Of a stretch of 40,631 bases of DNA, positions 5,632 to 35,885 are shown piece after piece. Source of the DNA: an uncultured Prevotellaceae bacterium (GTDB lineage: Bacteria > Bacteroidota > Bacteroidia > Bacteroidales > Bacteroidaceae); the NCBI GenBank assembly GCA_947166155.1, contig CAMVDC010000007.1:1-40631 (forward strand), read 5' to 3'. The notes under the pieces are model-generated. The model searched no databases, had not been told where the DNA came from, and was given only the letters and a program-made list of their open reading frames with translations. Within the stretch, counting starts at the first letter, position 1; each line of letters begins with the position of its first letter. Made by a program: the position numbers and the translations under genes.

Positions 5632-6651
5632 TCAGAACTTGACGAGTATGCGGAACACACGCCCTGGATTTTCGCTCCACCAGCGCAGGGTGTCGAGTGC
5701 TTGTTCGGGGGCGATGGTGCGTGTGATGAGCTGATCGGTAGGACATTCGCCCCGCAACAGGTAGCGGATGACGGCGTTGAAGTCGGCCGGATCGGCATTG
5801 CGCGAGCCGCGTATGTCGAGTTCCTTCTGTACGAAGAGGCGTGTTGGGAGCAGTGCGTCGCTTTTTGCATAGCCGATACACACGATGCGCCCCGTGAATG
5901 CCACCTCGTTGACTGCCATCTGGTAGGTAGGCACACTGCCTACAGCCTCAATCACCACGTCGGGCCCCATGCCGCCAGTGAGGTTGGCCAGGGTTTCGTG
6001 GACATCGACGGTGCGGGTGTTGATGGTGTGTGTGGCCCCCATGCGTCGTGCAAGTGCAAGCTTGTCGTCGTCGATATCGGCAGCGATGACAGTAGCTCCG
6101 CGCAGTGCCGAGCGCACTATTGCACCCAGCCCCACCATGCCACAGCCCACTACCATGACGGTATCGATGTCGGTCACGGCACCTCGGCTCACGGCATGGA
6201 AGCCGACCGACAGCGGTTCGACGAGTGCGCATACTTGCGATGAGAGCCCTTCGGCAGGTATCACCTTCTGCCATGGCAGTGTGATGAACTGGCGCATGGC
6301 ACCGTTGCGTTGCACTCCCAGTGTCTGATTGTGCTGGCAGGCATTCACCCTCCCGCGGCGACAACTGGCACAGTGTCCGCAGTTGGTGTATGGATTGCAG
6401 GTGACGATAGCGCCGACCTTGATGTTTTCGGGCACTCCGCTACCAACGGCTTCGACCACGGCACCCACTTCGTGACCCGGTATGACGGGATTGAGTGCCA
6501 TGAGGTTGCGACCCATGAATGTGTTGATGTCTGAGCCGCAGAATCCTACGTACTCGATTCGTAGCAGTACTTCGCCTGCTGCAGGACTGGCAGGTGTGTC
6601 GATATCGATCACCCTACATTCCTGATTGTGTGATATTTCTATAGCTTTCAT
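5632..6651 (-). CDS. Zinc-dependent MDR-family alcohol/polyol dehydrogenase, 339 aa
   Basis: GFCGSDINTFMGR, PGHEVGAVVEAVG, NCGHCASCRRGRVNAC structural zinc motif, VVGCGMVGLGAI Rossmann motif. Confidence 0.9.
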   Translation of the reverse strand: MKAIEISHNQECRVIDIDTPASPAAGEVLLRIEYVGFCGSDINTFMGRNLMALNPVIPGHEVGAVVEAVGSGVPENIKVGAIVTCNPYTNCGHCASCRRGRVNACQHNQTLGVQRNGAMRQFITLPWQKVIPAEGLSSQVCALVEPLSVGFHAVSRGAVTDIDTVMVVGCGMVGLGAIVRSALRGATVIAADIDDDKLALARRMGATHTINTRTVDVHETLANLTGGMGPDVVIEAVGSVPTYQMAVNEVAFTGRIVCIGYAKSDALLPTRLFVQKELDIRGSRNADPADFNAVIRYLLRGECPTDQLITRTIAPEQALDTLRWWSENPGRVFRILVKF

Positions 6652-6654
6652 TTT

Positions 6655-6790
6655 GTCATGTATTAATCTGAAAACGCGTGTCTTATATCTTTCGTTCTGT
6701 CATGTATTAATCTGAAAACGTATTTCCTGTAGTTTCCATCCTGTCATGTATTAATCTGGGGACTTATGCCTTGTTGCCTTCATTCCGACA
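6655..6790. repeat. 44-bp (2x22) degenerate tandem repeat between the amidohydrolase and dehydrogenase genes
   Basis: GTCATGTATTAATCTG at 6655, 6699, 6743, and GACATG at 6787; exact 44-bp spacing. Half-units TATAGCTTTCATTTT/TATATCTTTCGTTCT/TGTAGTTTCCATCCT/TGTTGCCTTCATTCC also align. Confidence 0.93.
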
Positions 6791-29526: not shown

Positions 29527-29714
29527 GAGTGCGCAGTCTCGACCCCGCGAGTGCGCAGTCTCGACCCCGCGAGTGCGCAGTCTCGACCCCGCGAGTGCGC
29601 GGTCTCGACCCCGCGAGTGCGCAGTCTCAGCCCCGCGAGTGCGCAGTCTCGACCCCGCGAGTGCGCAGTCTCAGCCCCGCGAGTGCGCAGTCTCAGCCCC
29701 GCGAGTGCGCAGTC
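29527..29714. repeat. 22-bp tandem array E (unit GAGTGCGCAGTCTC[GA/AG]CCCCGC, 8.5 units)
   Basis: GAGTGCGC at 29527, 29549, 29571, 29593, 29615, 29637, 29659, 29681, 29703. Confidence 0.97.
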
Positions 29715-30871: not shown

Positions 30872-31061
30872 TCGTTGCGTAAAATACATGTAATCAGTAT
30901 AATAATTATATGTAATCAGCTTGATAAATACATGTAATTGGCATTATAAATACGTGTAATTGGCATTATGAATACATGTAATTGGCATTATAAATACATG
31001 TAATTGGCATTATGAATACGTGTAATTGGCTTTAAAAATACATGTAATCAATAGTGATCAA
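30864..31061. repeat. 22-bp tandem array F (unit ACATGTAATTGGCATTATRAAT, 9 units)
   Basis: ACATGTAAT-type anchors at 30864, 30886, 30908, 30930, 30952, 30974, 30996, 31018, 31040. The first unit contains the hydrolase stop codon. Confidence 0.97.
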
Positions 31062-34381: not shown

Positions 34382-34408
34382 GTTTATAACCATAATCAGA
34401 CATGCCGT

Positions 34409-34741
34409 ATGAACGACTGGAAAGACCGACTGGGCGTGGTGTTTTCCACCAATCCCGACTACAACTACGAGACACAAGCCGACGAAGAGCCCGACACACT
34501 GCCCAAGAACCGACAGCGACTGAGGGTGAGCATCGAGAAAAACGGCCGCGGAGGCAAGGTGGTGACGCTGGTGAAGGGGTTTGTAGGCACAGCCGACGAC
34601 CTGAAGGAAGTGGGGCGTATGCTCAAGAGCCGCTGTGGAGTGGGTGGCAGTGTGAAGGATGGCGAGGTGATAATACAAGGCCAGCTGAAGGAAAAAGTCA
34701 TAAAGGTGTTGAAGGACGAGGGCTATTCCGACGTGAAATGA
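34409..34741 (+). CDS. yciH: SUI1/eIF1-family translation initiation factor (YciH-like), 110 aa
   Basis: RLRVSIEKNGRGGKVVTLVKGFVG...LKSRCGVGGSVKDGEVIIQGQ. Confidence 0.92.
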   Translation: MNDWKDRLGVVFSTNPDYNYETQADEEPDTLPKNRQRLRVSIEKNGRGGKVVTLVKGFVGTADDLKEVGRMLKSRCGVGGSVKDGEVIIQGQLKEKVIKVLKDEGYSDVK

Positions 34742-34801
34742 CACTGCTCTCCGACGTGTCTGAAAGCCTACGTTGATAATCAAGCAAATACATTCTCAAG
34801 C

Positions 34802-35021
34802 CGTCCCCTGTGCTTGAGAAAGTCGTCCCCCGTGCAGGGGACGACCGTTTTCTGCACGAAGTACGACCGTCCCCCGCACGGGGGACGACCCGAAAGGCCG
34901 CAGTCGCAGTGCCGAAAGGCCGCAGTCGCAGTGCCGAACGACCGCAGTCGCAGTGCCGAAAGGCCGCAGTCGCAGTGCTGAAAGGCCGCAGTCGCAGTGC
35001 CGAACGACCGCGGGCATTTTC
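34802..35021. repeat. 22-bp tandem array G (10 units in one register, two sequence families)
   Basis: Units start at 34802, 34824, 34846, 34868 (CGTCCCCCG.. hairpin family) and 34890, 34912, 34934, 34956, 34978, 35000 (CCGAAAGGCCGCAGTCGCAGTG family); every step is 22 bp. Confidence 0.95.
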
Positions 35022-35153: not shown

Positions 35154-35885
35154 ATGATGAGCGTAGGACGCAGGCACACGATAGCATTGGTGAATCAGCA
35201 CAGCGGAGTGGGAAAAACCACGTCGGCGATAGGGCTGGCACAGGTTTTGGCTCGTGTGTGGCGCCAGCGAGTGCTGTTGGTGGATGCCGATCCGCTTTCG
35301 TCGCTTACCGAACGGCTCGATGTCGCTACGGCCGCTCGCCCTTTGCTCGACGACTGCATGCTTGGGCGCGCCACTGCCCACCAGTGCCTTGTGGCTGTAG
35401 GCGATGGAATCGACCTGCTGCCATGCAGTGCAGGGCTCGTGGGTTTCGAGCTTGAAGCCATCAATCGCGACAACCGTGCTTTGGTGCTCCGACAGGTGTT
35501 GGAGCCTCTCGTGCAGGATTACGACCACATCGTGATCGATACTCCGGCATCGCTCGGACAGCTCACCGTCAATGCATTGGCTGCTGCCGACGAACTGATC
35601 ATCCCGCTCCGCTGCGACTATTTCGCGAGCGAGGGCATGGCTGAACTGCTGAGCTTTGTGACCAAGATTAGAGCCGGAATCAATCCCGCCCTCAACCTCT
35701 GCACACTGCTTGCAACCCATGTAATCGACGGGTCGCGCTACGCGCAGCGCAACATGGCCGAGATTCGCAAGGTGTATGGGCCGCTGGTGGCCGATGCGGT
35801 AATCAGCGAAGGCGGCGACATGATGAAATGCTACGAGCTGTTGGTGGAGGAACTGAAATCAAAAAGAAGTCATAAGCACAGATGA
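35154..35885 (+). CDS. ParA/Soj-like P-loop ATPase with atypical Walker A, 243 aa
   Basis: TIALVNQHSGVGKTTSAIGLAQVLA, VLLVDADPLSSLT, YDHIVIDTPASLGQLTVNALAAADELIIPLRCDYFASEGMAELL. Upstream TAACTTTG at 35127. Confidence 0.88.
   Translation: MMSVGRRHTIALVNQHSGVGKTTSAIGLAQVLARVWRQRVLLVDADPLSSLTERLDVATAARPLLDDCMLGRATAHQCLVAVGDGIDLLPCSAGLVGFELEAINRDNRALVLRQVLEPLVQDYDHIVIDTPASLGQLTVNALAAADELIIPLRCDYFASEGMAELLSFVTKIRAGINPALNLCTLLATHVIDGSRYAQRNMAEIRKVYGPLVADAVISEGGDMMKCYELLVEELKSKRSHKHR

Follow-up and report, generated by a model that had tools for sequence, protein, structure and literature searches.

A dispersed palindromic element with 22-bp dyad spacing, and the minisatellite attached to it in register, in a Prevotellaceae genome

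Among plasmid iterons, those of R6K are 22-bp units that lie in tandem and in helical phase. In Porphyromonas gingivalis, the BrickBuilt MITE is dispersed through intergenic DNA in about 19 copies, each with a leader followed by head-to-tail 23-nt units without spacers; stem-loops are predicted in it, and copy number changes between strains by whole units (PMC4596501). Tandem repeats of 22 and 23 nt were also described in P. gingivalis W83 (Nelson et al., 2003, as cited in PMC4596501). REP/BIME sequences, including the CGTC- and GTAG-tagged families, are short intergenic palindromes present in tens of copies, with species-specific sequence, stems of 8-9 bp and loops of 4-5 bases; the CGTC families are reported to occur without a dedicated transposase, in Bacteroidetes too (PMC3733652). 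Our search of the literature for a 22-bp period or a GTAC dyad found nothing direct.

Here we compare with these systems an intergenic array from an uncultured Prevotellaceae bacterium. The window, the whole stretch of 40,631 nucleotides that was analysed, comes from a draft genome (G000) of 235 contigs, in which the copy numbers of arrays may be misassembled. On the plus strand, the array is preceded by a 124-aa open reading frame (34402-34776) that a sequence-only reading had named yciH, and which has no Pfam match at E<=0.001 and is syntenic in the nearest relative, G016. It is followed by a gene for a ParA-type ATPase (AAA_31 by domain match; 35154-35885, plus strand), itself preceded by a TAnnTTTG-like promoter, and DUF5683 adjoins the locus; these two features suggest Bacteroidales. 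Searched against a collection of named genomes, the ParA gave just a distant match in Pantoea. Its identity to the syntenic counterpart in G016, whose parA frame (L088) contains one TGA, is only 47%, against 77-92% for much of the aligned DNA around it. The units at 34802-35021 are contiguous and lack the unique spacers between repeats by which a CRISPR array is recognized. At gathering score, tRNA alone passed a search of Rfam, with a weak mir-3122 match far below the cut-off, and a search of a phage collection gave no match.

Ten 22-mers start at 34802+22k (k = 0 to 9) and run through 35021, exactly 22 bp apart as the sequence-only reading had claimed; the tenth is only about half conserved, matching at about 12 bases. 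Identity at lag 22 is 0.61 over units 2-4 and 0.92 over units 5-9.5; it drops to about 0.2 at a lag of 21 or 23, and Tandem Repeats Finder (TRF) reports period 22 on either side of the change in sequence family (scores 64 and 209). The first four units had been described as mostly hairpin-like and the next six as a second type. Units 2-4 are indeed palindromes, but unit 1 forms no hairpin by itself, and the second family, though present, comes to 5.5 copies, unit 10 being a half unit. In the alignment of copies described below, unit 1 (34802-34823, plus strand) supplies a loop with its 3' arm (CTTGAGAA, 34813-34820), the 5' arm of that hairpin (TTCTCAAG, 34793-34800) being situated upstream; unit 1 is 22 bp long without being a dyad. 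There is almost no base in common between units 4 and 5, which leaves the phase of the second family relative to the first a free choice at a single locus. Thus, the unbroken register at 34802-35021 says little by itself, and other copies are needed for the test.

When the genome was searched with this region, the first family proved to be part of a dispersed element, here called A, found at about 16 loci, while the second family alone occupies a separate set of loci. Element A is built from a leader with TTGATAATCAA, a hairpin TTCTCAAG...CTTGAGAA, three 22-bp palindromes and then a CGNNCTCGCAGC unit. Three palindromes are the rule, with four and seven in two copies, and the unit length is 22 bp in every copy. 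In the window, the leader (34766-34801, plus strand) comprises the small palindrome TTGATAATCAA (34773-34783) and the 5' arm of the hairpin, and is delimited by column conservation in 22 copies and by gap-free alignment. The tri-dyad core (34822-34889) holds the 22-bp palindromes at 34824-34845, 34846-34867 and 34868-34889, which jointly form a 68-bp imperfect palindrome, as seen from conservation, alignment and a minus-strand self-match. An alignment of 21 copies of A, drawn from this genome and from two congeneric species, spans 136 columns and has no gap.

Of 24 copies of A, 13 reach a score of 10/12 or more for CGNNCTCGCAGC, and in every one of these the motif stands in the same phase (modulo 22) beyond the last dyad. 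This terminal unit is single in some copies, expanded to an array in others (C51, C25, C81, C7) and absent from still others (C48, C21 and several in G016); arrays of the second family, here called B, occur without A too. In the window, the B minisatellite (34890-35011, plus strand) has 5.5 copies of CCGAAAGGCCGCAGTCGCAGTG by TRF, and comparison of copies places its first unit where other copies of A carry the terminal CGNNCTCGCAGC unit. The change of content at unit 5 thus marks a module boundary in an inherited composite. Most likely, the B units from unit 5 onward descend from the CGNNCTCGCAGC terminal unit of A; as units 4 and 5 are unlike here, the case for this descent comes from other copies. 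A further array (L042:9315-9484) also switches sequence family in register, from TCGAACATGCTAATTCGTGGTC to TCGGGCCTGCGAGTGCGCACTC.

The sequence-only reading had proposed aligning the yciH-parA gap across related strains. Run against G016, this alignment is uninformative on register, since synteny is conserved there and both element and array are absent. A elements come and go between species: at least five further A loci of this genome are without A at the orthologous place in G016. Among this genome, G016 and G009, seven orthologous pairs share the position of an A element, with a core that is gap-free in all of them and flanks that are rich in indels. In the best-aligned pair, G009 and G016, the total difference in the B part is 22 bp. 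In the window at 6639-6758, this genome has exactly 132 bp (6 x 22) more than G016, where the sequence is single-copy, and a third locus differs by 22 bp; at the arrays L048, L046 and L044 the orthologous alignment is too diverged to read. The 22-bp and 132-bp differences, in several orthologue pairs, support change by whole units, the modularity for which the sequence-only reading had asked a test. Register-breaking indels as common as register-keeping ones, the pattern that had been named as contrary to a set spacing, were seen neither in the core of A nor in those arrays that align clearly; the flanks of several arrays are unalignable.

The build of A also recurs in other sequences. G013, of the same genus, carries CAGTACTCC...GGAGTACTG three times in 22-bp steps. 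The tri-dyad class as a whole can be written GT(A/C)C-N10-G(G/T)AC joined by 4 bp, with fixed spacing and stems that differ between species. Of 301 genomes in the family, 56, belonging to 12 of 30 genera, contain three such GTMC-N10-GKAC dyads linked by 4 bp, against 2 of the 301 genomes (3 matches in all) for the backwards control pattern; outside the family, the pattern was found in 1 of 244 genomes drawn order-wide. The window genome has 24 matches when up to 2 mismatches are allowed. The window copy is outside the matches listed; its core (GTCC-GGAC, GTTT-GTAC, GTCC-GGAC) fits with two mismatches and aligns with listed copies. With the linker left free from 0 to 14 bp, 469 exact-GTAC dyad pairs were found in 18 genomes, and with the inner spacing left free, 464 pairs in 18 genomes. 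In each case all but one among the matches listed are 10-4-10, and the two totals bound the exact 10-4-10 class at 463. If the remaining matches behave like those listed, free spacing returns the 22-bp period in about 99% of exact GTAC pairs. Density is by far the highest in G106 (genus g46), whose 3.5 Mb contain 96 tri-dyad matches and 257 exact GTAC dyad pairs. In one genus (L219, L220, L221, L223), many dyads have TTCG loops closed by C-G, a stable RNA tetraloop. The sole match on a viral contig is an 11-kb IMG/VR contig, likely bacterial flank or prophage, with four 22-bp GTAC dyads beside a terminator-like hairpin (L239:2240-2324).

We consider it probable, though well short of certain, that A is a REP-like palindromic repeat whose dyads obligatorily keep a 22-bp spacing, and that the minisatellite attached to it changes by whole units. 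The array would then be a composite, in which a copy of the dispersed palindromic element (34766-34889) is followed by a minisatellite of 22-bp units, most likely derived from the element's terminal unit through whole-unit gain. Three things would keep the register intact: the A-B junction passes on as part of the element, arrays change one or more whole units at a time, and purifying selection, visible as a lack of indels, acts on the dyad spacing. Some agent would then select for that spacing. The element most likely works like an extragenic palindrome of the REP/BIME type, that is, as a cis-acting hairpin or dyad array that usually sits closer to a gene's 3' end. Rough ORF calling places it closer to the 3' end of the upstream gene at 14 of 17 co-directional gaps (P ~0.006, one-sided). 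It may fold as single-stranded RNA or DNA, or it may bind a dimeric protein on one face of the helix, at two turns per unit. The claim of the sequence-only reading that spacing itself is set or selected thus draws support from the gap-free copies of A, the free-linker searches and the unrelated period-22 arrays considered next, though 34802-35021 does not show it by itself. Its companion claim, that the register is hard to explain by slippage, is weaker, since the A-B junction is inherited in the composite and whole-unit slippage keeps register.

The period of 22 bp extends to other intergenic arrays. In 435 kb sampled from this genome, it is 22, 44 or 66 in 56 of the 108 non-ORF arrays with periods of 15-70, counts that depend on TRF, crude ORF masking and draft assemblies, and relatives within the family show the same preference in small samples. 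About 39 of the array units are mutually unrelated by a loose criterion; roughly one in two lacks a notable dyad, and dyads are just mildly enriched. For example, the window holds 8.5 copies of the 22-bp unit GAGTGCGCAGTCTCGACCCCGC (29527-29714) and 7.6 copies of the unrelated 22-bp unit AAATACATGTAATTGGCATTAT (30882-31048), both found by TRF. Three arrays have period 44 with dissimilar halves, at 6639-6758 in the window, at L050:13357-13516 and at L039:5518-5628; because the halves are unrelated, period 44 is no obvious diverged doubling of one 22-mer. A second kind of composite (L040:19569-19837, L039:15533-15953, L056:634-955) has a central inverted repeat TTCTTTAATTTGCGACG...CGTCGCAAATTAAAGAA of 21-22 bp hairpins, with 22-bp arrays on either side in opposite orientation. 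G016 has a dispersed 22-bp family of its own, GAGGATATCCTCGCAGGGCGTT, a 12-bp palindrome plus 10 bp (L099:551-627, L100:9815-9923, L104:15997-16074, L247:2061-2140), which parallels the GAGTGCGCACTC arrays of the window genome.

Such arrays could have a mutational origin, in which replication slippage favours tandem duplications of about 22 bp and register arises without selection. The share of arrays with period 22, 44 or 66, the dominance of the period in relatives, the mutually unrelated units, the many units without a dyad, the three 44-bp arrays with unrelated halves and the 132-bp gain over single-copy sequence all point this way. We regard this origin as possible but do not favour it, since it leaves unaccounted for both the gap-free leaders and cores in 21 copies of A and the adjacent dyads of different sequence that keep 10-4-10 in many genera. 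To our knowledge, there is no slippage process that would single out exactly 22 bp whatever the sequence, which counts further against it.

As to how A may have spread, its dispersed intergenic copies, each a leader with tandem 22-mers, its limited species range and the loci occupied here but empty in G016 would suit a non-autonomous transposable element (MITE) that carries a minisatellite in the manner of BrickBuilt, with the register copied along. Several results make this rather unlikely. Column conservation over 22 copies revealed no terminal inverted repeats at the ends of A. The ends of BrickBuilt, GAGACCNTTGCA (GAGACC..TTGCA), occur as an exact pattern at 1 of 250 loci and at no A locus, and an identification of A as BrickBuilt was rejected. 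No clean target duplication was seen at the G016 places without A, where the flanks are too diverged. A search for Y1_Tnp (PF01797), the sole type of transposase sought, gave no match in G000 (about 85% complete), G016 or G009, and matches in 5 of 14 control genomes; on this evidence, a RAYT-linked REP was set aside for the present.

Covariation also counts in favour of the REP-like repeat with fixed spacing, which we prefer. In the long hairpin of A, double changes keep pairs over columns 59-102 (AU 8, GC 8, GU 4). Three separate hairpins were rejected as the structure, their covariation being no better than shuffled, and the long hairpin does better. Across 31 tri-dyad elements from the whole family, the pairing of dyad 1 with dyad 3 is well above that in shuffles and takes in the loops, although these shuffles do not control for species-specific consensus. 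G.U outnumbers A.C by 58 to 28 without two linker columns and by 58 to 56 with them; since the excess hinges on dropping these columns, the contrast does not decide for RNA on one strand.

The same dyads might instead be binding arrays for a dimeric DNA-binding protein, iteron-like and phased at two turns, with stems that follow its recognition helix. Such arrays would be consistent with outer boxes GTMC/GKAC that hold a fixed spacing in many genera while the inner bases vary, and with stems that are often imperfect hairpins with conserved boxes (for example, in G004). We find this doubtful, as the pairing of dyad 1 with dyad 3 extends into loop bases that a simple site does not need, and no candidate protein was identified. 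None of these models accounts for the 22-bp period common to many unrelated sequences of the family. A dedicated protein or enzyme of this family might measure 22 bp irrespective of sequence and impose the unit on intergenic DNA by binding, copying or selection, turning unrelated sequences into arrays of 22 bp or its multiples, which we judge distinctly unlikely. Least credible is a coincidence, in which two unrelated 22-bp arrays abut and the register comes from the choice of unit starts: units 4 and 5 do leave the phase arbitrary at a single locus, but the terminal-unit motif holds the same phase in 13 of 13 well-scoring copies, period 22 is common far beyond chance, and the G016 and G009 orthologues speak against the copies being one recent duplication.

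Tandem repeats of bacteria are usually explained family by family. In this bacterial family, a single length turns up in dozens of unrelated intergenic sequences, and a palindromic element varies in sequence between species without a change in that spacing. Were a protein or a copying step to set the spacing, a comparison of species that have the element with those that lack it could reveal the agent, which would account for a class of genome architecture covered by no model. If slippage alone is responsible, a strong length bias would be exposed in a living replication system.

How, then, does the locus compare with known systems? R6K iterons are likewise tandem 22-bp units, whereas the repeats described here are chromosomal, dispersed and palindromic, and without a known Rep protein. 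The P. gingivalis W83 repeats match in unit length and come from what is probably the same order; in the citing account, they are not described as a period common to unrelated sequences, nor tied to a tri-dyad element. Like BrickBuilt, A is a dispersed intergenic element with a leader, a near-equal unit length and whole-unit changes. Unlike BrickBuilt, with its 23-nt units, A has a unit of 22 bp, its core is three dyads in one palindrome, and the attached array is a second family. With REP/BIME sequences, A shares the form of a short palindromic intergenic repeat with species-specific sequence. Its stems are 7-9 bp with a 6-base loop in unit 2, and about 9 bp with a shorter loop and mismatches in units 3 and 4, compared with 8-9 bp and loops of 4-5 for REP. 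CGTC pairs with GACG inside the stem of A, whereas in CGTC-tagged REP it is an unpaired end tag. REPs stand singly or in pairs with an unpaired tag, whereas here three or more dyads follow one another head to tail in a 22-bp register.
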